DNA of 64,000 bases, taken from NCBI GenBank assembly GCA_032622095.1, contig CP136061.1, positions 39,933,797 to 39,997,796 on the forward strand, read 5' to 3'. The position numbers and the translations under genes were made by a program. This DNA comes from Siphonodentalium dalli (Eukaryota > Mollusca > Scaphopoda > Gadilida > Siphonodentaliidae). The number at the start of each line of letters is the position of its first letter. The first letter of the stretch is position 1. This document shows positions 16,680 to 63,850 of the stretch, piece after piece. The notes under the pieces were generated by a model. The model was not told where the DNA came from. It did no database searches and worked only from the letters and a program-made list of their open reading frames with translations.

Positions 16680-17599
16680 TACAATACAACAACAAAAACT
16701 ATCAAAATTATATTAAGACAAAACGACATTTCCGATTAAGTTGAATTAAATTAAATTAAATGGGACCCCCTGCTCCAGTTTCTTAAGCCTTGACATTTCA
16801 AATTGGTTTATTTGTTATAATTTGTCTTTAAAATTTGAGTTCCATAGAGGCGATAGCTCGTTCGACATCACATATACTGCAAGTTCGTTCCTTTTGTGGT
16901 CTCCTTCTGCCTGTGCAGAACTGATGCAGGCATAAATTTTATATTAAACAAGCTGAAACAGGCTCTCTGCGTTAGGGATTTTGAAAAATCAAGTGGTAAT
17001 ACGGTCAAATTTCGTGATACTTTAGTGATAATACGGCTATATTTTGTTGAACAAAATGTTGATAAATAACAAGTTTTGGGAAATTTGATACCATAGTTGA
17101 CAGTGGTTAGCATTATTTTGGTTGCAACATACCTATTCTGATAACTAAAGAAGACATGTTGTTGTTGTTGTTGTTGTATATTGGTGGTATGGGGACGTCT
17201 GGTTGGATTGAGTACCTTTAAACCCATCATTCTGTTGAATGGCGCGGGCCGCAGTGAAAAGACATATCTAAAGAGCATACGCCTGGTCCGTAAATTGGTT
17301 CATATTGAACCTAAATATTAAAATTTATTTGATTCTGAAATAGGCCCATAGTGAGCTCATTTCAATTCGTGTGTTTTTTTATTTATTTAATTAAAAATAA
17401 TTAATTAAAATTTTGAAAAACTAACGCCGTTATAACCTCCGCCAGGATACCCCGAGTTACCACACCAAATTTAGTTTAAATCGGACCAGCAGTCTACCGA
17501 CATAGTGCGACCATCGGTCATCATGTTGCCGAAAAATATACAACTTTCTTTCTTAGCGCGACCGTGGTCGCGTTAAGTAAAAGCCATTGGAAAAGTGTG
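16680..17599. other. Non-coding; short (TTG)n tract at 17158-17176
   Basis: A minus-strand frame (16868-17278) crosses the triplet tract and reads it as poly-Gln, so it is a simple-repeat artefact. The triplet tract resembles the longer one at 24441-24481. Nothing else is supported. Confidence 0.5.
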
Positions 17600-18090
17600 A
17601 AGGGTACGTGTTATGCTGTTTGTAGATAGTTCAGCGGCCAAATCGAAAAAGATCTCTAGTTTAACGAGATACCCCTACCCACGGTAGAACAAGTTAAAAC
17701 CAACTTTTCGTTAAGAAGAAATATATATTGTTCACGAAAATGACAGCGAAAAATAACGGAATTGGTGGTGGCTATTGTCAAATCGACGATGAACGATACC
17801 CACCAGTGTCTTTTTCCAGAAATTAACGATTTTTGTCAAGTGAGCCCTGTGGCTATGTCCTAACTTATTTGCCAACATTGTTGGGGTTAACATTACTATA
17901 TCATATCATATCATACCTCTAATTGATATGAAAACAGTGTTGGTTAATTTGGATTTTCCTGCCATTTGGAGCCGAAAACATTATTAGTGAAATAATGGAT
18001 TTTAGCTACCCCGCCCAAAAAATTACATATGTTTGTTAAGAACTTTACAAAATGTCCCAATTGATCATAATGGGTCTCAAAATGACTCGT
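17600..18090 (+). repeat. Left arm of an inverted repeat pair (partner 24500-25350)
   Basis: Bases 17690-17960 match the reverse complement of ~25010-25285 closely ('aattggtggtggctattgtc', 'atgaacgatacc', 'tggctatgtcctaac'). Bases 17995-18085 match the reverse complement of two tandem segments on the right (24545-24660 and 24700-24830). Confidence 0.85.
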
Positions 18091-18149
18091 TCGCTGAAAA
18101 TTGGGCTCTGGGACACTGCATACGTTACAAAAGACGTGTTCGGGATTCC

Positions 18150-18415
18150 AGACCCAAGTTACAACAACAACACATTTTATTAACTATTACCACAGTAAGT
18201 GTCGCATATCACAAGTATTCCATTATCGCTTAAGATTGAAACGCAGTAGTTTGAGCTGTGACCTATTGGGTAATCACATTAAAACGCCCACTCTCTGTCG
18301 TTGTGGCAAAATAGAAACAGGACAGCATTACTTAATGTGTTTACGCCATGACGATCAAATATCACACCCCAAAGATAGTTCCGCATGCTGGTCACAACAA
18401 ACGAAGAACAGTTGA
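18150..18415 (+). pseudogene. LINE ORF2 C-terminal remnant with Cys/His motif
   Basis: One frame of 18101-18415 reads 'HYRLRLKRSSLSCDLL', then 'PTLCRCGKIETGQHYLMC'. This is the typical C-terminal signature of many animal LINE polymerases: a basic 'R.RSSL' helix, then a C-x-C-G...ET..H-Y-x-x-C cluster thought to bind nucleic acid. No polymerase domain lies upstream, so the copy is truncated. The next 90 bases are not open in frame; a short (gatag)n tract follows at 18476-18491. The LINE lies between the left inverted arm and the first ribozyme repeat. The subfamily cannot be decided from this piece. Confidence 0.7.
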
Positions 18416-18509
18416 ATGCGTGAATCATCTCATTGTTGTATATGGTCCCACATATTTTGCACAGAATATTATTGGGATAGGATAGGATAGAATATTTTAT
18501 TTCAATATA

Positions 18510-18790
18510 CACATATTAATGACGTGGCAACCAAGTGGAATCCGATGTATTCCGTATATACATGTACTACATGTAAACAGACATATACAATGTCGACTTA
18601 TCTAAATTAAGCGCTTTGCCCCTGATGAGTTGTCGGCGATAAATAGACACGAAACACTAGCTTAACCTTAAAGTGACTATCCAAGTACACGTAGTGTCGG
18701 GCATCACGGGGAACGAACGTTACCACAGTCAACGGCGGATGGTTGGGTATACGTACACCATTTTATATACAATGGTATATATACAATTGA
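18510..18790 (+). repeat. Ribozyme-bearing repeat unit, copy 1
   Basis: Direct repeat of ~24030-24280. Shared text includes 'tggaatccgatgtattccgt', 'acatgtaaacagacatata', the hammerhead core and 'gatggttgggtatac' followed by 'caccattttatatac', where similarity ends. The upstream 'acgtggcaaccaa-tggaatc' junction is also shared with ~23215-23235. No coding frame. Confidence 0.85.
18617..18703 (+). ncRNA. Hammerhead ribozyme (type I), copy 1
   Basis: All parts of a hammerhead are present in order. Stem I 5' strand TGCCC (18617-18621); core CTGATGA (18622-18628); stem II GT-GTC/GACAC (18629-18634 with bulged T18631, and 18646-18650) closed by an 11-base loop ending 'ataaata'; core GAA (18651-18653); stem III ACACTA/TAGTGT (18654-18659 and 18692-18697) with a 32-base loop; cleavage-site base C18698 after GT (a GUC triplet); stem I 3' strand GGGCA (18699-18703). 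Known hammerheads of this open-stem-I type are self-cleaving RNAs in Penelope-like elements, retrozymes and satellites. The copy at 24120-24202 keeps the same design. Activity is inferred, not shown. Confidence 0.85.
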
Positions 18791-18859
18791 TTGATTAATG
18801 CTAATACATTTTACAAATATTGTATTGTGGATTCGAGGGGTGGCATAGTCATGCTAGAC

Positions 18860-21830
18860 CCTGATAGAACTATCCTATAGCCTCAGTTAAACTGAGATCA
18901 TATCCATTCAGTCCGTGGTGTTTTCATAACTTAAAATAGCGTAAGCGGTCACACAAACAGTTAAACACTTGCATTTTCTTTATTTGTCAGCCGCTTTTTT
19001 GTAAAGAGTCACAGGCTGTCGGACACCAACACAGCTTTATATAAGGATTAACTGTCATGTGGACTGTTTTTATGGAGATGTAACGGTGAGGTAAGTGGAC
19101 ATAACTTGTATGTAAAACTTACCTCACCGTTACATCTCCATAAAAATAGTCCACATGACAGTTAATCCTTATATTTATATACATTTAGCGAAAAAGCCAC
19201 TTTTGTAAATATATTTAAATCGAAAAGTGTATCGTGACAAGATCAGCCCAAAATACCCAATAGCACCCTTGGCAAAAGTTAATAGGAACAATTTCTCTTG
19301 TTGAAACCCGATGATGTATTAAGTCAATCCTGCGCGAGTCAAAATGCGCCCAAAGCATTACGTGTTCGTCTTTCCAAACCTAATGACGTATCGATGGTGT
19401 TATTAGCTTGGTGTTATGAGGCGTTGCGCATTCACCAAGAAATAACTGCAACTAGCCACGTGGGCGCCGACCAATCAGAATGCTGGATTTAGTGATGACA
19501 ACACTTAGTGTGTAAATATATATCGTATAGTGTCGGGTATCATAGCCATTTGGACACAACATATGTTGATATTGAGAGCATAATCCCTTCAGTACATGAT
19601 GTGTCAAAGACTTCAAATGTGCCAGTTGCTTGCTGTGGAGTGCCACACGGTGCAGGCTTTCGGGAATCAACACATGTATATCCTGATAAAAACTAACCGT
19701 TGGCCGCACACTCGGTTGATATTGAGATCATATCATATCAGCACGTGGTGTCTTCAAATAAAGTAGGGGGTCCTCAAAATTTTGCCTTTCTTAGTTTCCA
19801 GCCACTTTTCATTCAGTGCTCATGCTTTCTGAAACCAATCCATCTATATAAATTGTTTACTTCCTTATGCAACTACCTATTGTGCAATGATATCGTTCCA
19901 TTTCGTGGGGTGTTCTGGTTTTCAAATTGGGTAGGTGGTAATACAAACAGTGAAAATTGAATTATTTATTTTCCGGTCGCTTTTTGTTAAGTGTCCCTGG
20001 CTGTCGGGTACCAACCTATCTAGTTGGTTCGCAAGAGCATTGCATCTTTTCTGACAGAACAGCCATTCAGCCACAATCTCGGGTGATATTGATAGCATAT
20101 GCATTCAGCTTGTGGTGTGTTCAAGACTTCAAATAGGGATTGGAGTCCCTAAGATAGTGAAAATTTGCCTTTTCGTTTACCGGCCACTTGTGGTAAAGTG
20201 CCATAGTCTTTTGGGAACCATCTCATCCATAACAGATGCATATTTCCGGATAACACTATCATTTGTCCGCACCCTGAGTTAACATTGAGAGTATATAATT
20301 TGTTTAAGACTTCAAGTGGGATAGTGGGGTCCTCAATACCTAGAACATTCGCACCAGGATTTCGGGGGAACCAAACCACCCATACCAATTAATACTTCCA
20401 TGCTAGGACTACCTTTTGTTCATACACTCAGCTAAGTTTGATGGCATATTACTTCAGTTCATGGTGTGTTCAAGATATTAATTGGGTTAAGGGGTTTCCA
20501 AACTAGTGAGTATTTGCCTTTCTCATTTGACAACCACGTTTTGTAAAGTGACCCATACATTCAAGAACCAACCCATCCATAAAAGATGTGAATTTCTTGA
20601 TCTAGCGTCCATTTCTCTACACCTTCAGTTAATATTGGGAGCATATAATTTCGGTTCATGTTGGGTTCAAGATTTCAAGTGGGGTAGTGTTGCCTCAAAA
20701 CAAAGAAAATTCACATTTTCGTATTTGACAGCTACCTTTTGTAAAGTTTCCCAGGATTTCTGGAACTAACCCACCATTACAAATTGTATATAATGATACC
20801 ACTACCTTTCTCTCACACACTGCGTCAATATTGAGAGCATATATATTCAGTTCATAGTGTGTTCAAGAGTTCAAATTGGTTAAGGAGACACAAAACTGAG
20901 AATTCACTGTTCTCGTTTGCTAGCCACTTTTTGTAAAGTGTCCCAGCCATTTGGAAACCAAAACATCCATTAAAGATGTATATTTCCATATATAACTATC
21001 ATTTGTACACACCCTCAGTATATTGAGATCATATCCGTTCAATTCGTGGTTTATTTAAAACTTTAAATGGGGTAGGGGGCTCAAAGAAAATTAAACGTTC
21101 GCATTCTCTGATAGCACTACCTTATACTTTCACACTGTCAGTTAATAATAAGAACATATATATTCGGTGCATGGTGTGTTCAAAAGTTTAAATGGGTGTA
21201 TAAAGGGGTCCCACAAAACAAAAAAAATTCGCCTTTGGCCTTTGCCATCCGCTTTTTGTAAAGACTAGTGTCGAAGGCTTTCTGGAACCAACCCATTCAT
21301 AAACATGTTGTATGTCCTGACATTACTACCCTTTGCCCACATCCTTAGTCAATATTTAGAGCAATAATTTCAGTTCGTGGTTTATTCAACTTTAACACTT
21401 CAATTGTGTAGGGGTTCCTCAAAACATAACACATTCGTCTTTCTTATTATCAGCCGCTTTGTGTAAAGCGACACAGGCACAAGCCAAACCATACAAATTA
21501 TGTATTCTCTTATATCATTACCTTCCATTCACACTCTCTGTTATGATAGAGAGCATATAGCTGCAGTTCGTATTGTGTTCAAGACTTTAAATCGGGTAGA
21601 GTTTTCTCGAAAAATTGAAAATTGCCGCGTTTTGTAAAGTGCCACACTATTTCTGGAACCAACCCATCCATAAACATTGTGTATGTCCTTATATAGCTAT
21701 CCCTTGTACAAACCCTCAGTTAACATTGAGATCATATTCTTTCAGTCTTTCAGTTCAAGACTTCTAATAGCGTAGGGGCACCTCAAAATATAGAACGTAT
21801 TTGAAATAACGCTTGCCACCTTGGTCAAAA
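18860..21830 (+). repeat. Highly diverged ~190-210 bp satellite array, about 12 units
   Basis: Recurring landmarks in fixed order: 'cagttaatattgag(a/t)(g/t)catat', 'ttcagttc(a/g)tggtgtgttcaa', 'cctcaaaa', 'gccactttttgtaaagtg', 'ggaaccaacccatccataa'. Units are visible from 18880 and from ~19520 to ~21800. Between ~19175 and ~19520 the array is interrupted by other sequence, and a hairpin element sits at 19038-19174. Heavy divergence marks an old array. Open frames across it are accidental. Confidence 0.8.
19038..19174. repeat. Near-perfect 58-bp-arm hairpin (fold-back element)
   Basis: The left arm (19038-19096, 'ataaggattaactgtcatgt' ... 'ggtgaggtaagt') and right arm (19117-19174) are reverse complements with one visible mismatch, separated by a 20-base loop. 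It lies within the satellite array, after 'caccaacacagcttt'. Arms this similar in such diverged surroundings mean a recent fold-back/MITE insertion or gene-conversion palindrome. A transcript would fold into a long double-stranded hairpin. Confidence 0.9.
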
Positions 21831-21879
21831 TAGTTTATGAGATATATGATGATCCGGCAATGCTTGGATAGTCACTATA

Positions 21880-22265
21880 CAATTCATGGATATCTACAGT
21901 GCTATATTATTGCTATAGCTATACATATACAAATATCCCTCCTAAATGGGCACACTACAATTGTGTATATACCACCACGAGTATACGCTCGGGTCATAAA
22001 CTAATAATGCTATATTATTCTTATAGCTAAAGATACACGTTAAATATACACGTGAAATTTCACCATTTCATATACAAACATATAAATACCCCACTGAACG
22101 GGCGCACTAAAACTGTGCATATGACACCACGAGTACACGCTCAGGTCACAAACTAACAATGCTATATTATTCGTATAGCTAATATTACACGCTAAATATA
22201 CAGCTATATTATCACTATAGCTATACACATTAATATCCCAAATAAATGGGTGCACCTAGATGTGC
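21880..22265 (+). repeat. Diverged ~165-bp tandem repeat, about 2.5 units
   Basis: 'gctatattatt(g/c)(c/t)tatagcta' recurs at ~21901, 22009, 22151 and 22204. 'ccaccacgagtatacgctc' and 'caccacgagtacacgctc' recur at ~21972 and 22124. No coding. Confidence 0.75.
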
Positions 22266-22639
22266 AGATGATGTCTGGACAATACTCATGAATTAATTCT
22301 CATCCATTAGCAATGCATGTGCTACATAGAGCCCACTGTTACCTGTAAAGAATGACAAATTCGTAATTGGTATCATGTTCTGGCATGCTAGAAAGAACCT
22401 AGGGCCCACTTGTTCATTTGGACAATCCAATTTGATTCTTTGCTCTATCTTGTCTGGATTTGCACACATGCGGGGCCAACTGGCATTTACCATTATTTCA
22501 ACCCATATCGTTGGGATGAGTGGTGGATGTTATGCTCTATTTCGCTAACATGGAATTAACATACAGATTGCATAAATATGCAACTTCTCCTGAATGGCAC
22601 TGCTATATACTGGTCAAGCCATTGGAGCCTGCATATAAT

Positions 22640-24060
22640 ATGCAAACTTAAACTGGAATCCGATGTATTCCATCACGAATATGACATCTATATTGCATGG
22701 AATGTGCAGAATAACAGTGCACGTGAAATGACACCTAATTGGAATCATACGTATTCCTTATATACATGTAAACAGGCATAAATAATGTCTAATGATATAA
22801 ATTACGCGGGATGAATGCTTTGCTCTCAAACGCCAACACATAATAAACATATACAGTGGACAAGTGAACGATGCACAATACGTACACAAATAACATCTTT
22901 GATAACTCGAAGACGTCAAATCTCTCATATTCAGGAACTACAAATTCCTCAATTGCAACACTGGCATCGTTAAATTCTTAACAAACAAGCCAATTAATTA
23001 TTGATTATACACGGACGTTACATACGGAATGATTGCATTAAAGTTGCAAATCTAACAGAACGTGGCAAAGACTAATATGGAATCCTATGCATTCCAGATA
23101 CATGCACATACAGAATGATTGTATGTATTTAGCAAATCCAAAACTCCACATAACATAGCAAAAACTACCATGGAATCCTATGTATTCCGATTGCAAATAA
23201 ACATCTTCCACTTCACGTGGTAACCAACTGGAATCTCATGTATTCCGTAAACAGGCATAAACAATGTCTAATTATCTAAATTACGCTGGGTGAATGCTTT
23301 GCTCTAAAACGCCAACACGGAATGAACATATACAGCGGACAAATGAACGATGCATAATACATACATAAAATACATAACTTCAATAACCCGAAGCCGTCAA
23401 ATATACATATTTTGACATTATTTAATCTTCGCCAAACCTCGAAATCTAAAAACTTTGACGGGTGCCAGATTGAAAACAAATGCGCCAATTAATATTGATC
23501 AATTAATTCTTGACGCAACAGTCATAAATATCTCACACAAAGATACACGGAAAGTCAAAATTATGCCACTAACAAAGTTATTAATTTCTTATCCCAACAT
23601 ATAGAGTATCAATTTCACACCATCGATGTGGTATCGATCATCACGTGATCAAACCAGCTTAATTTGGCTGGACTAGACTGGTTACTTCAAAATCCATTGG
23701 ACCCGCCTCTCTGCATGATCGAATGCCAACTGGCCACGTGCATGCTATAATACTAATCTCAAAATATCGGAATTCGCACTTTTCGTGAGCGACGTTTTAA
23801 ACTGGAATCCGATGTATTCCTTCACAGATACTACATACAGAATGATTGCATGAAATTTGAAAACCCAACCTACCACAAACGTGGCAAAGACTAATATGGA
23901 ATCCTATGCAATCCGGATATACAGAATGATTGCATGATATTTGCAAATCCAACGATTCCACATAACGTGGCTAAAACTGCCATGGAATCCTATGTATTCC
24001 AGATAGACATATTGCATGACATTTGCAAATAAAACAAATGGAATCTGATGTATTCCGTAT
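22640..24060 (+). repeat. Array of TGGAATCC(G/T)ATGTATTCC palindromic units
   Basis: The dyad GGAAT-N-ATTCC occurs near 22658, 22738, 23079, 23170, 23230, 23803, 23896, 23980 and 24039, and also at 18534. It is usually preceded by 'acgtggcaaagactaatatgg'-like text and followed by 'agaatgattgcatgaaatt'. Two larger units (~22740-22920 and ~23230-23410) continue into 'aaattacgc...gaatgctttgctct' where copies with a ribozyme have the hammerhead core. The stretch 22266-22640 has no feature I can support. Confidence 0.75.
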
Positions 24061-24280
24061 ACACATGTAATACATGTAAACAGACATATAAAAATGTCGA
24101 TTTATCTAATTAATGCGCTATGTCCCTGATGAGTGGTCGCGCTAAAATAGACACGAAACACTAGCTTAAAGTGACCATCCAAATTCAAGCAGTGTAGGGC
24201 ATTACGTTGAACATAACGCTACCTCTAGCCAAAGGCTGATGGTTGGGTATACATTCACCATTTTATATACAAATACAATC
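24030..24280 (+). repeat. Ribozyme-bearing repeat unit, copy 2
   Basis: Same orientation and limits as 18510-18790. It differs by scattered substitutions and small indels, indicating an old duplication or two independent insertions of one family. Confidence 0.85.
24120..24202 (+). ncRNA. Hammerhead ribozyme (type I), copy 2
   Basis: Stem I ATGTCC (24120-24125) pairs with GGGCAT (24197-24202), six pairs including one G-T. Core CTGATGA is 24126-24132. Stem II is 24133-24138 with 24150-24154 and one bulged G at 24135, the same place as the bulge in copy 1. The 11-base loop ends 'taaaata'. GAA is 24155-24157. Stem III ACACT/AGTGT is 24158-24162 with 24191-24195. The cleavage-site base is A24196 (a GUA triplet, allowed by the NUH rule). 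Relative to copy 1, stem I has C-to-T changed to a G-T wobble, and stem I gains one pair while stem III loses one. Structure is kept although loops differ. Confidence 0.83.
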
Positions 24281-24440
24281 CATTGTTTCATTATTTTGGT
24301 AGATTTAGAGGGACTCCTAACAATCATTATGGCAGCAACAATAATTTTGTTATGTATATGTTAGTCTATATTATGTGTCGTTACTTTAGTTCTACAAAGT
24401 CGCTATAAATTAATATAAGATTACATGTTAGAAATAACAT

Positions 24441-24441
24441 G

Positions 24442-24480
<39 letters not shown>

Positions 24481-24481
24481 A
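24441..24481 (+). repeat. (TGT)n microsatellite, ~13 repeats
   Basis: Uninterrupted trinucleotide tract. Frame prediction turns it into poly-Cys, which is an artefact. Confidence 0.95.
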
Positions 24482-24499
24482 ACTGGGGATTTGGAAGCA

Positions 24500-25350
24500 C
24501 GAGGACATCTTTAACCACTCTCGCGGTGTCTATTGATCCGGTTTTCATCATATGTATCATGACTTGGTCCCCATTAGAATCATTTAGAAAAGTGTGTTGT
24601 CATAAACATGTATTTTTTCTACCAAAACGTGTTCGGGGAAGCGGTAGCTAAAACCCAAAATCTGGCAAACCGTTCACAATATCTGTCAAATTATTTCTAC
24701 ACGTGATGTCCATACAATATTGGGTCCCATTCAGATCAATTAGACAATGTTTGTAAAGTCGTTAACAAAAACATGTAATTTTTCAACCAAAAACGTGTTT
24801 GGGGGAGTGTTAGCTAAAATCGAGTATCTCGCAAACAGTTCATAATTTCTGTTAACTTCTTTTTTAATATGCTTGTCAGATAACTACTACACCATATGGA
24901 TTAAATATATTAGCATTATTACAATATCCGTTTGAATGATAATATTTGAAAAATAATATTTTTGTGAAAAAGAGCGATTTTTCAAAACAAATAAAATATT
25001 TCGGCTCCAAATGGCAGAAAAATATAAATTAACCATCACTTTTTGCATTTCAAGTAGAGATATGATATGATGTAGTACTTTTAACACCAACAATGTTAGA
25101 AAATATGTTAGGACATAGCCGCAGGACTCGCTTTACCAAAAACGGTAATTTCTGGAAAAAGTCGCTGGTAGGTATCGTTCATCGTCGATTTGACAATAGC
25201 CACCACCAATTCCGTTATTGTTTACTATCACTTTCATCAACAGTATATATTTCTCCTTCAAAAACATTTGGTTTTAACTTGTTCTACCGTGGTGACCACT
25301 TTTAGCGTTTGGCCGCTGCACAAAGAGGAATGGGTCATTACGCAGACCTT
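24500..25350 (-). repeat. Right arm of the inverted repeat pair (partner 17600-18090)
   Basis: Reverse-complement match of the left arm, with an internal tandem duplication: 'accaaaa(a)cgtgtt(c/t)ggggga' units at ~24620 and ~24788. The left arm has the corresponding segment once. Short frames (25093-25402) are accidental. Confidence 0.8.
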
Positions 25351-25740
25351 TTTTCTAAAAACATGGCAGCACAATAAAATGAAAATGAATTTCAAAAGAT
25401 GACAGCTATCGAATTTGAAAACAATTTAAATATAGCTTCGCAACGAGTATAGATATTATTCCTTTACCAACGGATGGGTTAAACATCTGTTAATAATAAT
25501 GAATTCAATTTGTGTTGTGTTATTTAGTGTTGGCTGTGAGATAAACAATGGTCAAACGGGCGGTTAAATAATTTCGTCAACATGAAAAGACACATTTAAA
25601 ATGGAACTATATTTTTCTTGAATGTGCCTTTACTTCCTCTTTGGTTCGGATAAGGAAATCAATATTAATTTGTTTTAACACCAACTGTTTCGAGGTCGTT
25701 CATCCTCGTCAAAATGTGATAAAAAGAATCTCAAGTTCAT

Positions 25741-25846
25741 CGCAATTATATACGAAATGTATTAACCTCGTCCGCTAAATTCTCGCTAAAGCTCGACTTG
25801 AATCGAATTTAGTGCACTCAGTTAATACATTTCGTTTACAATTGCG
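25741..25846. repeat. 26-bp-arm inverted repeat
   Basis: The arms 25741-25766 ('cgcaattatatacgaaatgt'...) and 25821-25846 are complementary with 2-3 mismatches. The 54-base loop contains a weaker nested pair ('ctaaattc'/'gaatttag'). Likely a short fold-back element. Confidence 0.7.
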
Positions 25847-25936
25847 TCTCATTACAGACCATACATGTGTTGAACTTTTCATTGCACATTATAACTTGGA
25901 ACTAAATTTACAAAACGATATATATAAGTTAACTCA

Positions 25937-26915
25937 ATAATTCTATGTTAAGTAGCTCATGGATGACCTGGTGCATGCATCTTAGTTTTATTCTATCAAT
26001 ATACTCATCACGATGAGCCAAGGGCCAAACAAATTTTTTTTTCAATTTCAGCAAAAAAGTTCTCGGCGGGTTCGTAAATCAACTTTTTAAATTTGTGTAG
26101 CGCCTAACCTGATTTAAATGAGTCGGTCACGCCTAACCTGATTTAGATGAGTCGGTCGCGCCAAACCTGATTTAAATGAGTCTGTCGTACCTGATTTAAA
26201 TGAGTCTGTCGCGCCTAACCTGATTTAAATGAGTCGGTCGCGCCTACCCTAATTTAAATGAGTCGGTCGCAATTAACCTGATTTCAATGAGTCGGTAGTG
26301 TCTGATTTAAATGAGTCGGCGGTCTGCGCTCGTAGTTCCCGGAGTGTCTGGGTTCGATGTGTAAGAGTAACCGCAGACGCTGCAATTAAAATCATAAGTG
26401 GGGGAAATCGCAGGTGGAGCATCCACTGCGCGTGCTCACGACAATATCGCAGACATATCGTAGAGATCAAGCAGTGTGTGATTTTTCCAGGAAAATCGTG
26501 GTGTGACATTGGCAACGCGCGCGATCGTAGCTGTCGAATGATCATGATCACGTGGATAAAATCGTAGCTGCAAACATCGCAGCACCGTAGCGTCTGCGGG
26601 CAAAGGGGCAAGCCAATTTTCTCCACCTGTTATTTTCCCCACTTAATATTTTAATCGCAGCGTCTGCGATGGTCTGAATGGGTACGCATTCCAAAACGCC
26701 GTATGGACAATGTTAATGTATGCCAACATATGAGAAGTGATTGAATTTAAAAACCGATTTTGGAGGAGACAGAAGCCTCGGCGCTCTTACCGCACTAACA
26801 GACGAGCGAACACGCATGGTAGTTAGTGTGCGATTATCGCGTTAACATAATTATACAAGAAAACTAAGATGCATGCATCAGGTCACCCATGAACTATTTA
26901 GCAATAGAATAATTC
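25937..26915. mobile_element. ~980-bp element with ~55-bp inverted ends
   Basis: 25937-25995 ('ctcatggatgacctggtgca', 'tgcatcttagtttt') and 26855-26915 are reverse complements at roughly 85% by eye. Inside are a ~28-bp tandem array (26098-26325), a GC-richer segment (26325-26690) and one monomer like the satellite at 39.95-41.1 kb ('acagacgagcga' to 'gtagttagtgtgcg', 26797-26833). No transposase. The overlapping frames at 26273-26642 on both strands are not convincing. Confidence 0.6.
26098..26325 (+). repeat. ~28-bp tandem repeat, about 8 units
   Basis: Units of 'gcgcctaacctgatttaaat' plus 'gagtcggtc', with truncated units near 26180 and 26300. Lies inside the 25937-26915 element. Confidence 0.9.
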
Positions 26916-27689
26916 AGTTCGGTTGCGGTTTCACAACGTTACAACTGACATACGATTACACAAGACACACCTTGAATGTGGAACTGTGTAAGAGTGAATA
27001 TTAATGTTCTAAATCCCATGTTTCACCTTTAGTTGTGATTGGGGGGGGGGGGGTGTCGTACTTTATTAACACGCAAGTAGTGTAATTAAGTACGGGTAAT
27101 TAGAAGTAACAAATCGTTTAGTTTCTATCGTATCGACTGAAAGGGGTGAGCAGATTATTGGTGATGAATGTTCTCGTTAGCTGTCAATATAATATGCATA
27201 TTTGCCCCGTTACGTTTATACACTGTAGCATTGGCGGGCCAGAGTGTGTTGACATGTTAATTGTTTGGTTCATTAATAACAGATCAGCGGGGATTTGTCG
27301 TGAAAACGTACACGTATACGTGGAAATATGCTACGGTTACGGTTAAATTAATGGTTCTTCTATTACACCACCGTGTATACTCGGTTTAAATATGTATATT
27401 ATATAGGGACGTGTGCTCAATTTTTTCAATAATTTTTAAAGAAATTGAGCAGTTGCAACAGAAGCAGCAAAAAAGGGTGTACAATTGGCAAATGATGAGG
27501 GGCGGTGTGACGTGTAACTAGGATTGAAATTAGATATGCAATTTGGAGATTATTGGATGAGGGATGTTATATTAATTATATTAAAGGGACGAGAGGGTTT
27601 AGTTGTCGAAAATATTTGTTCCAAACACCGTAAACAGATCAATATTAAAACGCATACATTTTGGTTCAAATATACGATCACTATATCCC
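26916..27689. other. Non-coding; G-run at 27041-27053
   Basis: Small frames only, none recognisable. The homopolymer G-run is a likely length-uncertain site in the assembly. Confidence 0.5.
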
Positions 27690-27693
27690 TTAA

Positions 27694-28276
27694 AGGGGTA
27701 CTGTACGCCAAATGTTGTTGTTGGTTTCTATAGTCACCGAGTCGGAGAATAAGGTAAAAAAAATTCCAATATTTGAAAGTCTGTTGAGTACGAAGTCATG
27801 TTACGGATGACAAATTTACCGGAATGCAAAAATACAAATTGTCGTTGTCGAGTAATGTTTGTAAAGTTTTCAACCAAATGAATCAAATAAAAGTTATATT
27901 ATATGCATACTAGTCCCATATAATCATTTAAGTTATTGTATCGTCGCTAGTCAGTGAGTGGCTTGAGTGTTCTCCCCGTATCATCATAATATTTTAAGCG
28001 ATCGTGTGTGCGATCGGTTTAACAATCCAGTATCCCTCAATTACTGTTTTTGATTACGGTAATTCGTAATTTAATTGACGCCATTTTATGGCTCCAGTCA
28101 TAAATTCAATTTATATCAAATTATTAACTTTTAAATTATTAAATTTTAAGATGGCCTATTAACCTGAGCGTTTACAGAATACATCTTCGACTCAAATTAC
28201 TTATGTTTCTATATATTATCGATATTAGATCGTTGTTGTCACCGGAAATTTAATGAAAATGGCGTACAGTACCCCT
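27694..28276. mobile_element. TTAA-specific MITE (T2/Kolobok-like), copy A
   Basis: Inverted termini AGGGGTACTGTACGCC and GGCGTACAGTACCCCT are flanked by TTAA on both sides (27690-27693 and 28277-28280). 583 bp, no coding. Two more copies in the window (30828-31419, 53049-53610) share the whole length and the same TTAA junctions. TTAA followed by AGG(G/A)(G/A) matches the T2-type MITEs attributed to the Kolobok superfamily; piggyBac-like origin is the alternative. Confidence 0.92.
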
Positions 28277-28449
28277 TTAAAGGAATACGGTCCTGAAAAA
28301 AACAATATTATTTTCTTTCAATATACCGATAATATATATATAAAATGTCCATTGGGCGCATATAATCTAATATTCGGCCGCCAATCGTTATTTTTATAAC
28401 GATTCAAAAAAATTCAGAAGTTAGCCGAAGATTTTGTTGTAGACGAAGT

Positions 28450-28519
28450 CACGTGATCATCAGCCCGATCACGTGATTGTCACATGTAAACAGAAGCATA
28501 GCACGTGATCGATCACGTG
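28450..28519. promoter_or_regulatory. Cluster of four CACGTG boxes
   Basis: CACGTG occurs at 28450, 28470, 28502 and 28514, each within a 'TCACGTGA'-like context. The last two form an 18-bp perfect palindrome (28502-28519). CACGTG is the E-box core bound by bHLH-zip factors (MITF/USF/Myc types). No gene is adjacent, so a regulatory role is only possible. Confidence 0.4.
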
Positions 28520-29339
28520 GTAACTCATTGACAACGCATAGATACGCGACGGCGGTATTTTAAGTTTGCATGTAGTCGATCGCGGCCTTTGACGATTGTC
28601 GCGTTATCACACTGCGAATGCAAAACTTCGCCGAAACATCGCCTTTCTCGTAATTAAATGTCGATCTTTATCGTGTTATTATTACTATTATTATATGTAT
28701 CGCGATGTGTTGTTACTATAAAGCCATGCCCGTATATTATTCAGTTTTGCGCGCATTTATCTATATAAACGCGTGCTCGTGTTTATATATATTTTTTCGT
28801 TACCGGAATAGTCCAAGTTATATTATATATGCATATCAAGATTGCATATATACGCGAAGACTTGCACAGTTATTAGGCAATTATCATCTCGTAAACATTC
28901 CAATTTCCAGATGCCATTAGTCGTGTGTCAATAAAGAGCGTTTCGTTTTAATTATCGTAACGCGGTTAAACAACACACAATTGGTTTATTGCTGTCGGAT
29001 TTAATCAATTATAATCAAGTCATTCATTACCAATATGATATTTCATTTTTCCTTGGTTATGAATCATGTAATTATTTGGGCAATATGGTGTTTATATATA
29101 TTTCGGAATATTGCTTCCCCACCCCAAAACAATCTAGCCGACTGTCACTGATGGAAATTCACTACATCTATGCATCGTTATTGACCTATTAAATTAGCAC
29201 TCTAGCGATGCGGTCTATTGAATATCCAGGTCATAAATCGACCTCTATGTGGCAATTACGCATAACAATAGGGTTATAAACATCCAATCATATATAACAC
29301 TTTTTGAAGGAGGGATAATAATCCGGTTTAATATGGAAT
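28520..29339. other. Non-coding, no recognised feature
   Basis: AT-rich, with several short frames lacking any family pattern. One inverted AACGCTCTTTAT motif is at 28931-28942. Confidence 0.5.
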
Positions 29340-29735
29340 CACATATTCAAGTGCTCTTTATTCGCAATATATCGTAATAGTGAACGCTCTTTATTGCGTC
29401 AAGGTAAAGGGACTCGACTTAGAACAGTTGTCATCGTGATTTTTTTTACTGATTACACCAATACAGGTCAATACATGTACACGAACTTCCGGTATGCATG
29501 CTTTATATATCCTTCCAAGTCATAGCAATTTCCGCTTTATTAAACTCTTTTTATTCGTACCATATTAGGAAAACTCTTAACATGGAACGCTCTTTATGGA
29601 GCCATGGTGAAGGAAATGGGCAATCGACTAAGAATAGTTGTTATCGTGATTTATTCAACATACTCTCCACTTTAACTGCAATTGTATGTATTCGTAACCA
29701 TGACTGACTTGTCAAATTAAACGCTCTTTATTTGG
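29340..29735 (+). repeat. Loose array built on AACGCTCTTTAT
   Basis: Motif at 29382, 29586 and 29720 plus a partial at 29353. The first two are followed by a shared ~75 bp ('gactcgactta-gaacagttg' versus 'aatcgactaagaatagttg', then 'tcatcgtgatt'), giving a ~204-bp period. Confidence 0.65.
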
Positions 29736-30827
29736 TATATGTAATCGGTTTCTGATGATTGCGCAACGGGTTTCCCACAGAAATCCCGCCAAATGGCACG
29801 TAAACGAACATCGTTTGGAAATGAATACAACATTATACCTAACTGAGAGTCACTAGACCGGCCACAGCCGAAAACATTGCATTTATATGGCAATGTTACG
29901 AATGAATGATTGTAAATACGGGACACTCGGGGCATATATACGGAAAATTAAAACAACATCGTGAACACGCGCCCGAATAGAGTTCACATGCCTGCTCATG
30001 TTTTTATAAGCTTTATTTTTTACACGAAAGTGTTACCTACCCCGCTCAATCGGCCTTCTATAGTTTTTTTGTCAAAACAATAACTTTCCAAACAGCGCTT
30101 AAGACAAATCACAAGTGAATATAACTCACCGCGCGATGACAATTAACCATGTGTACACAATGCTATTGATATGCCCCGCAGTAATTCCATCACGCTCACG
30201 AGCTGATGTCTATTCCGGATTTTCCATCGTCATATAGGTAGACACAAATAACTCCGATTCCGTGTTTTTAATTAGTTTACCTCGCTTGACGTCATGCGAG
30301 GTTTTGCGACGGAGATAGCCGACAACCGGTGGCGGTATTATTTATTTATTTCTCGGCTTAATTATTACGCGATTTTTATGGGACTTGGATTATTGTGATC
30401 ACAATAGGGGTGGCTTTCCGATAGAGTTTTGTTGTTTCATGAGCACTGTAATCCCTTAAACATCATGCTTACATAAAGACCTACTAAATTTTACCTAAAC
30501 AAGAGTCTGATTGTGTTATAGAAGGCAGCATAATGCTACTGGCTAATCACACACAAATGGTATAAACGCTCTTTATTATTTCCAAATAAGGAATTGAGCA
30601 ACAAAGAACGCTCTTTATGTTTACCATCATAATATAAAGAAACACCAGGAAAGTAACTTTGTATGCTTTGTTTACATAACAGTCGGCAAATTTACGACTA
30701 TACCATAATGTTTATGAGATATTTCTCATTTGTATATTAACAAAGTCTGTCTATATTTGAATATTATTTCGTTTGTAGCGGTGGAAATATGTTCACATGA
30801 TACCCACCAAGGCCTTCATACCTTTAA
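29736..30827. other. Non-coding; two more AACGCTCTTTAT motifs at 30565 and 30607
   Basis: No coding frame stands out. The 30565-30620 block matches 3098-3152. Confidence 0.5.
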
Positions 30828-31419
30828 AGGGGTACTGTACCCAAGATGTTGTTGTTGGTTTCCATAATCCCCGAGTCGGAGAATAAGGTAACAACTTTTC
30901 CATTTTTTGAAAGTCTGTTGAGTACGAAGTATTGTTACGGATGGCAAATTTACCGGAATGCAAAAATACAAATTGTCGTTGTCGAGTAATTTTTGTACAG
31001 TTTTCAACCAAATGAATCAAATAAACATTATATTATATGCTTAGCAGTCCCATATACTCATTTAAGTTAGTGTATGGTCACTAGTCAATGGGTGGCTTGG
31101 GTTTTCTCCCCGTATAAGCATAATGTTTCAAACGATCGTGTGTGCAATTGTTTTATTAATCCAGTATCCCTCAATTATAATTTGATTACGTTTTGTACAC
31201 GGAAATTCCTATTTTAAGAGACGCCATTTTATGGCTGGAGCCATAAAATCAATTTATATTAAATTATTAACTTTTAAATTATTAAATTTTAAGATAGCCT
31301 ATTAACCTGATCGTTTACAGAATACATCTTCGACTCAAATTACTTATATTTCTATATAGTATCGATAATAGATCGTTGTTATCACCGGGAATTTATTGAA
31401 AATGGCGTACAGTACCCCT
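30828..31419. mobile_element. TTAA-specific MITE, copy B
   Basis: Same family and orientation as copy A, 592 bp. TTAA lies at 30824-30827 and 31420-31423. Its left terminus reads GTACCC where the right reads the complement of GTACGCC. Minus-strand frames of 63-75 codons across it are accidental. Confidence 0.92.
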
Positions 31420-50195: not shown

Positions 50196-50311
50196 TTTAA
50201 TTATAAAATAAATCCTCTGTGTATCGTTCCTCCTTCAGTAAAACTGGCAACGACATTAACACGGAATAGCGATTAACCAACGACGATAAACGCCAATACT
50301 CAAAATATAAC
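50196..50311 (+). repeat. Decayed SINE body next to the GPCR start
   Basis: 'cctctgtgtatcgttcctcc', 'cagtaaaactggcaacga' and 'acgacgataaacgccaata' parallel the SINE body at ~33371-33450. The tRNA head is lost or too diverged to see. Confidence 0.6.
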
Positions 50312-50360
50312 TGGATTAAATATTAACATAGAATCGTGTTTTTTCTTGAAGGGGAGTATT

Positions 50361-51422
50361 ATGGTTCGTGTGGAATATGGAATGGAGAACGCCACGGATT
50401 GGTTAGGCTATCCGTTATGGAATGGTTTCATGGCACCCGCTAATCACTCTGCAAATCAAAACATCTACAATCTGATTAATAGCTGGGTGTTGACTATTTT
50501 TCAGCCAGTAATTTTCCTTCTCGGTGTGGTCGGAAATGTTCTTTCTATTATCGTTTTCATTCGAGGTACTTGGAATCATGCACCAATGCCGATTTATCTC
50601 ATAACACTGGCTGTCACAGACACTTCCAGTCTGGCTTATGGCATGATGACTTCGTGGATACACGCTATACTTGAATGGAAGATAACAACCACTTCGAATC
50701 TTGCTTGTAAAAGTGTATTGTTCGCATATTATGTGCTCCCCTATTTCTCTAGTTGGATAATAGTTTCAATAACGGTCGAAAGAGCTATAGTTTTACTATT
50801 TCCAAACAGATGGAAGTGCACACGCAGAAAGGCCAAGTTCTTGCTAATTTTCCTGGGGATATTCATGTGTGTGATTTGCAGCCATTTTATATATGGAATG
50901 CATCTGGAAAGGGGCTATTGTCTCTGTAATACGAAGAAATACGATAATTTTATCAGATTTATTTGGTCATGGATAGACCTGTTAGTGGGATCTGTCGTCC
51001 CGTCAGTCATTCTTGTTGTCGCCAATGCCGCTATAATATGGCGAATTAGAAGGAATGCCAGAAACATGTCAGAATTAAGAGGAAACAACAGAGGAACCGG
51101 ACAGTCGTATTCAGAGACTACGTATACTAAGATTCTGATCGTGTTGAGCGTAGAGTATGTGGTGACCACGCTGCCTCACTGTGTCGTGACTGTAATCTGC
51201 GACAATGTGTCGGCGACCACATACAAGGAGTCCATCGGAAAGATAGATCTAGCTGCAACCATCAGTATTCTACTCCTGAATAGTCATAATGCCGCTAATT
51301 TCTATCTTTACTGTTTAAGCGTCTCGACGTTTAGGAGGCAGCTTTCACTGTTAATTCCATGTTGTCGTCCGTATCGTGGCCAACATCAACTTGTAGAAAC
51401 ACAAGAAGTACGAGGAGCATAA
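50361..51422 (+). CDS. Orphan class A (rhodopsin-like) G protein-coupled receptor, intronless
   Basis: A 353-residue seven-helix receptor of the plasma membrane. Start: ATG at 50361 with A at -3 and G at +4; an upstream in-frame TTG is ignored. Two N-glycosylation sites lie in the N-terminus (N10, N28). TM1 (~41-67) has GNVLS; TM2 (~77-96) LAVTD with Asp87; Cys116 at the top of TM3 probably bonds to Cys187/189 in loop 2. TM3 ends V-E-R-A, a DRY variant. TM5 has Pro214. TM6 (~255-279) has TTLPHC but lacks the CWxP Trp. TM7 reads N-F-Y-L-Y (313-317) where NPxxY is usual, then FRR and a CC pair (334-335) for palmitoylation. NFxLY in TM7 is typical of FMRFamide/TRH-receptor-like and lineage-expanded invertebrate receptors. 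A peptide ligand is inference; chemosensory use is the alternative. Confidence 0.93.
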   Translation: MVRVEYGMENATDWLGYPLWNGFMAPANHSANQNIYNLINSWVLTIFQPVIFLLGVVGNVLSIIVFIRGTWNHAPMPIYLITLAVTDTSSLAYGMMTSWIHAILEWKITTTSNLACKSVLFAYYVLPYFSSWIIVSITVERAIVLLFPNRWKCTRRKAKFLLIFLGIFMCVICSHFIYGMHLERGYCLCNTKKYDNFIRFIWSWIDLLVGSVVPSVILVVANAAIIWRIRRNARNMSELRGNNRGTGQSYSETTYTKILIVLSVEYVVTTLPHCVVTVICDNVSATTYKESIGKIDLAATISILLLNSHNAANFYLYCLSVSTFRRQLSLLIPCCRPYRGQHQLVETQEVRGA

Positions 51423-57577: not shown

Positions 57578-58308
57578 GAGTGATTTACCCTTGCACTACC
57601 ACGCTAGGATCAGCATAAACAAATTCTGGCAGCTGAATGGTCAATGATACATGGATGAAAAGTGCACGAAAAAATGCACAAATGTGTTTCCCGTCGAGAA
57701 ACATCAAATATAACCACACGGTAAACGGTTATGGTTGTGCAAATGGCGAATAATTTATGGGAGGTGTTTGTGTTTTTTTCGATGTTATTTTTTTTCTCAA
57801 TTTTAAGGGTAGTGTGACGTTTGTCAAGCTGCAGTGTGATTTTCCACGTACACAAGTACTTTTGGGCATATTTATGTGTGTCTAAAAGGACGTTCTTTAA
57901 TTTCAAATACTCGTGCAGGGTCAATTAAGCTTTCCTGCGAATACAGGCCAGCGGGATTTGTTAACACTGAGGCATATGTAAATCATTTAGTGTATTGTAA
58001 CCAGTACTATAGGGACATGACAATCTGCGGGATGGGATGGAATATGGAATAAAATAACAATCTGCGGGGTGGGATGGAATATGGAATAAAATGACAATCT
58101 GCGGAACAGATTTAGAAAGGATACAGTACGTAGAGGGCTCCTTTTAGTGTCTAACGAAAGTCCGATATTTGCCCCAGCCACACATATTAATCAGCCACTG
58201 GCTGAAAACTGATCTGACATAAAATTGTCGAAATCAAGGCCGTGGAACAGCTGTAGAAATGTGTTTTTTCAGCAATAACTCTATGCCCACATGTAAACCG
58301 CCAATGTA

Positions 58309-59275
58309 TCAGTGTGTGCAGCACATGTGATCGTTATTATGGAGCGCCGTCTGCTCTCTGGGATCAGTGTGTGCTGCATGTGATCGTTATTATGGAGCGC
58401 CGTCTGCTCTCTGGGATCAGTGTGTGCAGCACATGTGATCGTTATTATGGAGCGCCGTCTGCTCTCTGGGATCAGTGTGTGCAGCACATGTGATCGTTAT
58501 TATGGAGCGCCGTCTGCTCTCTGGGATCAGTGTGTGCAGCACATGTGATCGTTATTATGGAGCGCCGTCTGCTCTCTGGTATCAGTGTGTGCTGCATGTG
58601 ATCGTTATTATGGAGCGCCGTCTGCTCTCTGGGATCAGTGTGTGCACCACATGTGATCGTTATTATGGAGCGCCGTCTGCTCTCTGGGATCAGTGTGTGC
58701 AGCACATGTGATCGTTATTATGGAGCGCGGTCTGCTCTCTGGGATCAGTGTGTGCAGCACATGTGATCGTTATTATGGAGCGCGGTCTGCTCTCTGTGAT
58801 CAGTGTGTGCAGCATGTGATCGTTATTATGGAGCGCGGTCTGCTCTCTGGGATCAGTGTGTGCAGCACATGTGATCGTTATTATGGAGCGCGGTCTGCTC
58901 TCTGGGATCAGTGTGTGCAGCACATGTGATCGTTATTATGGAGCGCGGTCTGCTCTCTGGGATCAGTGTGTGCAGCATATGTGATCGTTATTATGGAGCG
59001 CCGTCTGCTCTCTGGCATCAGTGTGTGCAGCACATGTGATCGTTATTATGGAGCGCCGTCTGCTCTCTGGGATCAGTGTGTGCAGCATGTGATCGTTATT
59101 ATGGAGCGCCGTCTGCTCTCTGGTATCAGTGTGTGCAGCATGTGATCGTTATTATGGAGCGCCGTCTGCTCATCTGGGATCAGTGTGTGCAGCACATGTT
59201 ATCGTTATTATGGAGCGCCGTCTGCTCTCTGTGATCAGTGTGTGCTGCATGTGATCGTTAATAAAACAGCACCGT
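58309..59275 (+). repeat. 55-bp satellite in unit copy 1, ~18 monomers
   Basis: Monomer 'gatcagtgtgtgcagcacat' + 'gtgatcgttattatggagcg' + 'ccgtctgctctctgg'. Variants: 52-bp monomers reading 'gcagcatgtg' or 'gctgcatgtg', and a C/G switch in 'gcgc(c/g)gtc'. Frames on both strands are artefacts. Confidence 0.97.
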
Positions 59276-59284
59276 CTTCTCTTC

Positions 59285-59985
59285 TGGGATGAGACTAATC
59301 AGCGTATCATCAACAGGGTTCTAATCAGCGTATCATCAATAGGGTTCTGGGATGAGACTAATCAGCGTATCATCAACAGGGTTCTAATCAGCGTATCATC
59401 AATAGGGTTCTGGGATGAGACTAAACAGCGTATCATCAATAGGGTTCAGGGATGAGACTAATCAGCGTATCATCAACAGGGTTCGGGGATGAGTCTAATC
59501 AGCGTATCATCAACAGGGTTCTAATCAGCGTATCATCAATAGGGTTCTGGGATGAGACTAATCAGCGTATCATAAGGGTTCTAATCAGCGTATCATCAAT
59601 AGGGTTCTGGGATGAGACTAAACAGCGTATCATCAATAGGGTTCAGGGATGAGACTAATCAGCGTATCATCAACAGTGTTCGGGGATGAGTCTAATCAGC
59701 GTATCATCAACAGGGTTCAGGGATGAGACTAATCAGCGTATCATCAACAGGGTTCTGGGATGAGACTAATCAGCGTATCACCAATAGGGTTCAGGGATGA
59801 GACTAATCAGCGTATCATCAACAGGGTTCGGGGATGAGTCTAATCAGCGTATCATCAACATGGTTCAGGGATGAGACTAATCAGCGTATCATCAACAGGG
59901 TTCAGGGATGAGACTAATCAGCGTATCGTCAACAGGGTTCGGGATGAGACTAATCATCAGCGTATCATCAACAGGGTTCGCTCTA
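59285..59985 (+). repeat. 25/36-bp composite minisatellite in unit copy 1
   Basis: A core 'taatcagcgtatcatcaaca' + 'gggttc' with or without 'tgggatgagac' gives two unit lengths mixed along the array. The last unit runs into the CAGGGTTCGC end at ~59973. Confidence 0.95.
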
Positions 59986-60065
59986 CCACTTGCCAAATCT
60001 GCCAATGGCAACAAATTATTCACATTTGGTAAAAAATAATTTCATTTGGCAAACGTTTTGGCAGG
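59973..60065 (+). mobile_element. hAT-end-like segment in unit copy 1
   Basis: CAGGGTTCGCTCTACCACTT, then 'gccaaatctgccaatggcaa' and 'catttggcaaacg', resembles the left end of the hAT at 7380 (CAGTGTTCACGCTG, 'gccaaattagccaatggcta', 'catttggctaaac'). The opposite end was not found. Copy 2 has the same at 63646-63733. Confidence 0.5.
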
Positions 60066-61445
60066 TCACTTTTTAATTCCTCAACAAAAAGTTAACATAT
60101 CATCGCGCAAATTGGTGACATCGACGTTTAATACCACGCCGTTCGTGTAACATCACTATTTCATTGCCTCGAAATGCCAATTGAACATAAATTGTGGATA
60201 TCGCAGGGGGGGGGGGGTCTGCAAAACAATGCCGTATATAGGGCCGGGTTGGGTGGGTGGGTGGACCAGATGCCGAATAAATTGTGCTTGTAAATTTGTT
60301 CCAAAATGGGGGTTTTTTTTTCAAACAATTTACAAGTACTGACCATGTAATGTTGTTTGTAAGCATGTTAGTACCATGCTTGTTGGTATAGGGCTATATA
60401 GGCAGCTATAGTGACTCTTTAGCCTCAGATTTAGCAACATTCTGGATTTCACAGGATCCCGGCCCACTTCATAGTGGACCACCGTAATAGAGTTCAGGAA
60501 ACTTATGATCAACGGAAGAAATATGTGACTGTCTGATACTTTCGAAAAGCGCTCCCGATAACAATTAATGGTGATTTTCAGAAAATGCAGCAAATATTTA
60601 TACATTTACATGTACCAATCAGTACCAAAAGGCAAAATTAGTAATATTTGGCCTATTGTTACAAGTCAATAAAGGACAATTACTCTGGCATGCATTGATG
60701 GACGAGTGATTTACGAGTGATTTACCCTGGCACTACCAAGCTAGGATCAGCATAAACAAATTCTGGCAGCTGAATGGTCATTGATACATGGATGAAAAGT
60801 GCACGAAAAAATGCACAAATGTGTTTCCCGTCGAGAAACATCAAATATAACCACACGGTAAACGGTTATGGTTGTGCAAATGGCGAATAATTTATGGGAG
60901 GTGTTTGTGTTTTTTTCGATGTTATTTTTTTTCTCAATTTTAAGGGTAGTGTGACGTTTGTCAAGCTGCAGTGTGATTTTCCACGTACACAAGTACTTTT
61001 GGGCATATTTATGTGTGTCTAAAAGGACGTTCTTTAATTTCAAATACTCGTGCAGGGTCAATTAAGCTTTCCTGCGAATACAGGCCAGCGGGATTTGTTA
61101 ACACTGAGGCATATGTAAATCATTTAGTGTATTGTAACCAGTACTATAGGGACATGACAATCTGCGGGATGGGATGGAATATGGAATAAAATGACAATCT
61201 GCGGGGTGGGATGGAATATGGAATAAAATGACAATCTGCGGAACAGATTTAGAAAGGATAAAGTACGTAGAGGGCTCCTTTTAGTGTCTAACGAAAGTCC
61301 GATATTTGCCCCAGCCACACATATTAATCAGCCACTGGCTGAAAACTGATCTGACATAAAATTGTCGAAATCAAGGCCGTGGAACAGCTGTAGAAATGTG
61401 TTTTTTCAGCAATAACTCTATGCCCACATGTAAACCGCCAATGTA

Positions 61446-62945: not shown

Positions 62946-62959
62946 CACCGTCTTCTCTT

Positions 62960-63655
62960 CTGGGATGAGACTAATCAGCGTATCATCAACAGGGTTCTAA
63001 TCAGCGTATCATCAATAGGGTTCTGGGATGAGAATAATCAGCGTATCATCAACAGGGTTCTAATCAGCGTATCATCAATAGGGTTCTGGGATGAGACTAA
63101 ACAGCGTATCATCAATAGGGTTCAGGGATGAGACTAATCAGCGTATCATCAACAGGGTTCGGGGATGAGTCTAATCAGCGTATCATCAACAGGGTTCTAA
63201 TCAGCGTATCATCAATAGGGTTCTGGGATGAGACTAAGCAGCGTATCATAATGGTTCTAATCAGCGTATCATCAATAGGGTTCTGGGATGAGACTAAACA
63301 GCGTATCATCAATAGGGTTCAGGGATGAGACTAATCAGCGTATCATCAACAGTGTTCGGGGATGAGTCTAATCAGCGTATCATCAACAGGGTTCAGGGAT
63401 GAGACTAATCAGCGTATCATCAACAGGGTTCTGGGATGAGACTAATCAGCGTATCACCAATAGGGTTCAGGGATGAGACTAATCAGCGTATCATCAACAG
63501 GGTTCGGGGATGAGTCTAATCAGCGTATCATCAACATGGTTCAGGGATGAGACTAATCAGCGTATCATCAACAGGGTTCAGGGATGAGACTAATCAGCGT
63601 ATCATCAACAGGGTTCGGGGATGAGACTAATCATCAGCGTATCATCAACAGGGTT
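62960..63655 (+). repeat. 25/36-bp composite minisatellite in unit copy 2
   Basis: Unit order follows copy 1 nearly one-to-one, including the odd short unit with 'tatcataa' (~59567 and ~63245). It was therefore duplicated as a block, not expanded independently. Confidence 0.95.
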
Positions 63656-63850
63656 CGCGCTACCACTTGCCAAATCTGCCAATGGCAAAAAATTATTCAC
63701 ATTTGGTAAAAAATAATTTCATTTGGCAAACGTTCCTCAACAAAAAGTTAACATATCATCGCGCAAATTGGTGACATCGACGTTTAATACCACGCCGTTC
63801 GTGTAACATCACTATTTCATTGCCTCGAAATGCCAATTGAACATAAATTG

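Follow-up and report, generated by a model that had tools for sequence, protein, structure and literature searches.

A probable extended type I hammerhead in the 3′ region of endonuclease-less PLEs and their RT-less derivatives in the scaphopod Siphonodentalium dalli

Introduction

What kind of element left two hammerhead-like sequences about 5.5 kb apart on a scaphopod chromosome, and is their fold under selection? The question is raised by a stretch of 64,000 nucleotides from Siphonodentalium dalli (GenBank assembly GCA_032622095.1, contig CP136061.1, positions 39,933,797 to 39,997,796 of the forward strand), here called the window; positions refer to it unless a fetched locus (L number) is named. 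Hammerheads of Penelope-like elements (PLEs) and Terminons were reportedly described by Cervera and de la Pena in 2014 and by Arkhipova in 2017. PLE and Terminon hammerheads are portrayed as minimal, without helix III or loop contacts, and perhaps cleaving as dimers (PMC7761336, PMC6431247); their role is given as unknown, and PLEs are named as likely candidates for moving animal retrozymes (PMC7761336). Metazoan retrozymes, known in mussels among others, have units of about 150-450 bp with a canonical type I hammerhead (PMC7229834). For the lizard PLE PAc, insertion in vitro did not need ribozyme cleavage (PMC11167929).

Two hammerhead copies in the window

The CTGATGA cores start at 18622 (copy 1) and 24126 (copy 2), both on the + strand and 5504 bp apart, in agreement with a sequence-only reading of this DNA, which had claimed a second hammerhead some 5.5 kb from the first in the same orientation. 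Copy 2 is assigned to 24120..24202 (+) as a type I hammerhead by sequence reading, by a structural descriptor and by the covariance model R1 described below. It consists of helix I (24120-24125/24197-24202; pairs A-U, U-A, G-C, U.G, C-G and C-G), the core CTGATGA (24126-24132), helix II with a one-base bulge (24133-24138/24150-24154), GAAA (24155-24158), the core and GAAA being taken by sequence reading, and helix III (24159-24167/24187-24194), in which CACT[A]GCTT faces AAGCAGTG. By reading, the strands CACT-[A]-GCTT and AAGC-AGTG make helix III longer than its outer 4 bp; copy 2 is read as a hammerhead whose core and helices are all still present. Copy 1, also of type I, occupies 18617..18703 (+) with its core at 18622-18628 (descriptor, model R1). 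CACTA/TAGTG is left of its helix III, the inner part of which is partly lost by reading, and when fetched from the genome as L001 this copy shows one broken helix III pair. Both copies have the CUGANGA...GAAA...UH core, three helices and an open helix I, as in type I hammerheads.

The differences that had been described between the copies hold for the most part. By reading, the U.G pair in helix I of copy 2 corresponds to C-G in copy 1, which is the C-to-T change tolerated as a wobble, and the cleavage base does change from C to A: cleavage is predicted after H17, namely C18698 in copy 1 and A24196 in copy 2. The bulged base of helix II does differ, copy 2 having G and copy 1 having T; that it sits at the same place is uncertain by one base in copy 1. 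All three helices are present in both copies by the descriptor, with the inner helix III of copy 1 partly lost.

The pattern CTGATGAGN{8,30}GAAAC matched the window twice, against a mean of 0.06 after shuffling, and two matches were reached in one of 100 shuffles. The descriptor, which demands the core, helix I of at least 4 bp, helix II of at least 4 bp with at most one bulge, helix III of at least 3 bp plus A-U, and UH, matched copies 1 and 2 only and found nothing in 200 dinucleotide shuffles (both strands). Three results count against a hammerhead. First, Rfam gave no family at the gathering threshold in the whole window. Second, a relaxed Rfam search of 17000-31000 gave eight sub-threshold matches, none of them a hammerhead. 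Third, the energy minimum was a hammerhead in none of five copies folded; the energy-fold z values of the two window copies are 0.81 and -1.24, and their minimum-energy folds are not hammerheads. Neither the Rfam nor the energy-fold negatives are decisive.

Elements that carry the window copies

Copy 1 lies in a solo, 5′-truncated 3′ end of 254 bp (18519..18772, +), whose limits are those at which genome copies align: against the query 18480-18780 most other genome copies align over about 40-293, and the full 301 bp are common to L002 only. Copy 2 closes an RT-less, PLE-derived element of about 2.4 kb (21847..24274, +; blastn of units, 5′ boundary approximate). Copy 2 is considered to be the end of an old RT-less element because 21847-24274 is collinear in pieces, at 76-92% identity by blastn, with units of 1.9-2.0 kb that are repeated in tandem in L061-L063. 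Upstream of its ribozyme, imperfect tandem units of about 84 bp were recognized by self-similarity at an 84-bp shift (23835..24030, +), and similar units of about 84 bp precede the ribozyme in other copies as well. No similarity to the PLE ORF described below was found in the window at E 0.01, and the window copies are therefore non-autonomous members only. They are old RT-less insertions of two subfamilies, probably inactive as elements by now. A single PLE bounded by copies 1 and 2 was considered, as their distance of 5504 bp comes close to the 5.6-kb period of a PLE array, and was rejected because the interior lacks ORF similarity and the L064 unit of that array matches mainly 3′ regions.

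Several other features were recorded in the window. Inverted arms at 17679-17977 and 24999-25292, about 85-88% complementary, flank both ribozyme copies and may either delimit a larger element or be two copies of a repeat; a palindromic, MITE-like hairpin lies at 19067-19146, its microRNA-like score being below threshold on both strands; and satellite arrays with 55-bp and 37-bp units extend over 58308-63656, the array pair being present twice in the window. An open frame of 381 aa (50277-51422) resembles a rhodopsin-type (peptide) G-protein-coupled receptor.

Copies in the genome, tandem units and the 3′ end

The genome searched comprises 2.23 Gb in nine contigs. Copy 1 with its flanks gave at least 58 matches (40 scored of 1381 candidates, a lower bound). 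The motif CTGATGAGTN{12,24}GACACGAAAC gave 115 genome matches against none for the reversed pattern, the loci taken from it being ones chosen by an intact core, and a looser motif with an upstream ATCTAA gave 378 against 18 for the reversed control. Among 99 of the first 100 of these 378 matches (one row, which reads as a chance match, was left out), 42 same-strand ribozyme spacings are below 7 kb, and they are not independent because some places are duplicated regions. Among the matches listed, 19 of the 42 fall at 1875-2148 bp, ten at 4770-5663 bp, the window pair included, and six below 700 bp, none being shorter than 485 bp. At L065 (3079-3418) the ribozyme region forms a 170-bp head-to-tail dimer, 99.4% identical and of the size of a small retrozyme unit.

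In L061, L062 and L063, RT-less units stand head to tail, with lengths of 1875 bp, 1879 bp and about 2000 bp. A 3′-terminal stretch of about 365 bp in the L062 and L063 units is shared with the RT element described below at 88.5% (blastn); for the L061 unit the match to that element covers 228 bp at 76%. A gag-like ORF on the - strand of L062 (449-1270; Pfam Retrotrans_gag, E 2.1e-5) adjoins a tandem ribozyme unit. The 3′ end is sharp (CACCATTTTATATACAA) and lies about 0.1 kb downstream of the ribozyme; 62 distinct flanks follow it, and in arrays the 3′ end of one unit runs straight into the next, head to tail. The unit start TGACATTC occurs within 20 nt in eight of the 62 flanks, with L027 differing after TGACATTC, and telomere-like doublets (four motifs) were found within 60 nt of the 3′ end in none of the 62.

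Reverse-transcriptase relatives

A 5.6-kb tandem unit with a reverse transcriptase (RT) was found in L064, its ORF broken by a stop and a frame shift. The RT protein of L064:5057-5836 gave at least 148 matches in the genome (147 scored of 1352 candidates). Other RT families among the matches stand at about 82, 60, 56 and 50% identity. In the twenty loci fetched the RT is 97-100% identical to that of L064 and the open frames are long, so that these copies look recent; in L077 the ORF is open over 694 aa. The ribozyme lies downstream on the same strand, about 0.8 kb from the RT ORF, in 19 of the 20, or in seven of eight places, by the core motif, with which model R1 agrees. The loci are not 20 independent cases because they represent eight places, several of them tandem arrays. 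The sole exception is L080, in which no ribozyme was found in the stretch examined. In L072-L075, L077-L079 and L081 an extra C stands beside helix I (CCTGTCCC before CTGACGA); the helix can still form with a bulged U, and activity may be lower.

The RT matches RVT_1, and the L077 ORF aligns along the RT to the relative P0027, the one among 31 relatives listed with a C-terminal GIY-YIG domain (precomputed domains). The layout of P0027, an RT followed by GIY-YIG, is that of a PLE, as also described in PMC11167929. Pfam gives no GIY-YIG match for the L077 ORF, which stops short of the GIY-YIG region; P0001, P0002, P0006, P0008, P0021 and P0023 (634-665 aa) end before it or pass it without matching, and in an alignment of nine proteins only P0027 and P0028 extend into it. 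A shorter relative, P0026 (417 aa), is named as Mytilus edulis. The relatives of the window copies have a PLE-type RT ORF, terminal repeats and tandem arrays, as PLEs do, and the L077-type RT points to an endonuclease-less PLE lineage. Within family A, to which copy 1 belongs, L022 carries RT remains (83% over 239 aa) beside a ribozyme whose core is not intact; it is the one locus with RT remains among the 30 from the copy 1 search, each taken with 1.5 kb of flank on either side.

Conservation of the fold between families

Model R1 was built on families A, A2 and B (13 sequences), with the window copies and family C left out. It scored copy 2 at 98.5 bits (E 1.4e-24) and copy 1 at 106.7 bits (E 7e-27), and it also recovered the unseen family C, with a score of 21.1 bits (E 0.007 in 317 kb), from two places, L037/L038. 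The locus search covered 73 of 86 sources, 13 loci that overlap others being left out, and did not report a further family C variant at L023 1236-1347. The family C sites are L037 2096-2209 (identical with L038 592-705), L038 2052-2165 and the L023 site; helix II of this family is GATTC/GAATC with a longer loop II, and the L023 variant has a mismatch in helix II.

The covariation of stems that had been proposed as a check was seen in the relatives: when 90 matches, 63 of them distinct, were aligned by the model, 95.9% of the cells held standard pairs and seven of 17 pairs were changed on both sides. These counts are to be read against the fact that the alignment was fitted to the structure, that the loci from the motif with 115 matches were chosen by an intact core, and that most double changes rest on one divergent family. 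None of 500 shuffles reached either the pairing or the both-side value, and partners slid out of register pair in 23.6-44.7% of the cells. Nine cells carry both-side changes: five in the single family C row, two U-A in L037 copies whose own family has U.G, one in L009, where helix II begins with A-U instead of G-C, and one in L085 that appears to be an alignment shift. Across the 17 modelled pairs, family C leaves nine unchanged and has five changed on both sides, two on one side and one unpaired. A count of 13 of 17 pairs on another alignment, A4, was rejected and replaced by that on the 90 matches, because A4 included three weak matches, one at L002 2286 and two, L009 1317 and L061 3879, that represent a single place. 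Comparison between families supports selection on the fold. The sequence-only reading had drawn past selection from the two window copies; selection is upheld between families but does not follow from that pair.

Decay within families

Decay was examined in 31 distinct copies, aligned over at least 190 bases and ranked by overall similarity regardless of ribozyme intactness, and the expectation was obtained by simulating decay at each copy's own flank rate. Substitutions per site amount to 0.025 in the core, 0.045 in the helices, 0.044 in the loops, 0.084 in the supposed loop contact and 0.065 in the flanks. The core is intact in 22 of the 31 against 15.1 expected (0.005 of simulations as high), and helix II has seven broken pairs against 14.2 expected (as few in 0.023 of simulations). 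Helix I (12 broken pairs, 14.2 expected), helix III (21, 23.0 expected) and the supposed loop contact (14, 13.5 expected) lose pairs as fast as the flanks predict. Five copies are intact in the core and in all pairs, where 3.4 would be expected (0.234). With only the core and helix II better kept than the flanks, it follows that the source elements were constrained and that most copies are decaying. Many genomic copies with stems disrupted as often as their flanks had been named as the finding that speaks against selection. In the 31 copies this applies to helices I and III, with the core and helix II standing apart; single copies largely behave in that way and the conclusion of selection holds for the source families, so that the claim is partly supported.

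A possible contact between loops I and II

The bases 5′ of helix I are complementary to the start of loop II over 5 bp in family A (GCGCU/GGCGC), family B (UCGCC/GGCGA) and family C (ACGCG/CGCGU); at the two outer positions the families are distinguished by compensating changes. In copy 2 the 5′ strand of the possible contact is GCGC at 24115..24118 (+), complementary to GCGC at 24139-24142. For segments that were picked after being seen, shuffle p values for the Watson-Crick run are 0.09 in family A, 0.04 in B, 0.04 in C, 0.17 in copy 2 and 0.64 in copy 1, and they become 0.09-0.63 when G-U pairs are counted. Some loops exchanged between families pair as long or longer, and after this swap test the pairing was rejected as a firm claim; within family A no constraint on the contact was found in the 31 copies. 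A Watson-Crick contact between loops I and II is hence kept as a lead, the complementarity being suggestive only. Published examples of such contacts come from type II and HDV-like type III hammerheads, and the loop contacts of type I hammerheads are described as non-canonical (PMC6155905, PMC7936874). The motif here would share with the former the pairing, so far only suggested, and differs from them in its type I topology; if real, the contact would bring Watson-Crick pairing of the two loops to a hammerhead of type I.

Discussion

The motif is best explained, with a probability of roughly 85%, as an extended type I hammerhead in the 3′ region (pseudo-LTR) of endonuclease-less PLEs and of their RT-less derivatives. 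Catalysis and a role in copying are what we infer from this arrangement. A read-through transcript of an array would cleave itself after H17, either C or A, in every copy; this would yield unit-length RNAs of 4.8-5.6 kb from RT-coding units and of about 1.9 kb from RT-less ones, and such RNAs, linear or circular, might serve as templates for the PLE reverse transcriptase.

A bolder version, which we hold only tentatively and consider on balance doubtful, regards the RT-less element of about 1.9 kb as a large retrozyme, that is, one with a full-strength, monomer-active hammerhead held by a Watson-Crick helix between loops I and II, whose transcript, once cut and circularised, is reverse-transcribed by the endonuclease-less PLE that shares its ribozyme end. 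If true, the autonomous partner proposed for animal retrozymes (PMC7761336) and its dependents would be found in one genome.

Less probable still is the reading as a true non-LTR retrozyme of metazoans: a small, non-autonomous element would multiply through circular RNAs of 170-400 nt, and the PLE would only borrow similar ribozymes. A type I hammerhead with a stable helix III is indeed typical of invertebrate retrozymes (PMC7229834 and PMC7761336), and both the 99.4% identical 170-bp dimer of L065 and the six of 42 spacings below 700 bp among the matches listed fit such an element; however, the commonest tandem spacing among these matches is about 1.9 kb instead of 150-450 bp, and the same 3′ end and ribozyme are present on RT-coding PLE copies. 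Those copies also make it very improbable that the motif is a decayed repeat, hammerhead-like by inheritance and functionless in every living copy: although helices I and III of the 31 copies lose pairs as fast as the flanks predict, PLE copies that look recent by their RT identity of 97-100% and their long open frames carry the motif, and compensatory changes separate the families. Recruitment by the host of a ribozyme regulating a gene at the window locus can practically be dismissed, since, although hammerheads of such a kind exist (PMC6155905) and the core is better kept than the flanks, there are hundreds of dispersed copies, most of them decaying, and no open frame of at least 120 aa is present in 17.3-35.5 kb of the window (introns not considered).

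The extended hammerhead of the PLE lineage can be set beside three further known systems. With the hammerheads of PLEs and Terminons it shares type I topology, a location in the PLE terminal repeat and tandem arrays, and it differs from them in a bulged helix III of eight pairs (family A, copy 2) to about ten (family B) and in loops I and II that are partly complementary. Metazoan retrozymes (PMC7229834) are alike in their type I hammerhead with stable helix III and in RT-less tandem repeats; in contrast, the units here are mainly of about 1.9 kb, and their ribozyme end is common to an RT-coding PLE. Athena and other endonuclease-deficient PLEs (PMC3846280, PMC6431247) likewise have an RT without C-terminal GIY-YIG and head-to-tail arrays, whereas the 3′ flanks here, unlike those of Athena and Terminons, are without telomere-like doublets (0 of 62) and the copies are dispersed along the chromosomes. 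In the titles and the beginnings of abstracts of the open-licence literature, no description of such a PLE family was found.

As read from the genome, an apparently endonuclease-less PLE lineage and its non-autonomous offspring carry an extended hammerhead at their 3′ end. With a putative full type I hammerhead both next to RT-coding PLE frames and on tandem derivatives that lack RT, this family joins PLEs to retrozymes. The same complete ribozyme end occurs in one genome in three settings: next to RT ORFs, on tandem units without RT and on solo ends. Therefore, whether the ribozyme sets the length of the template and whether the PLE enzyme moves the RT-less element, that is, a template-length role and PLE-driven movement, become testable on one family.
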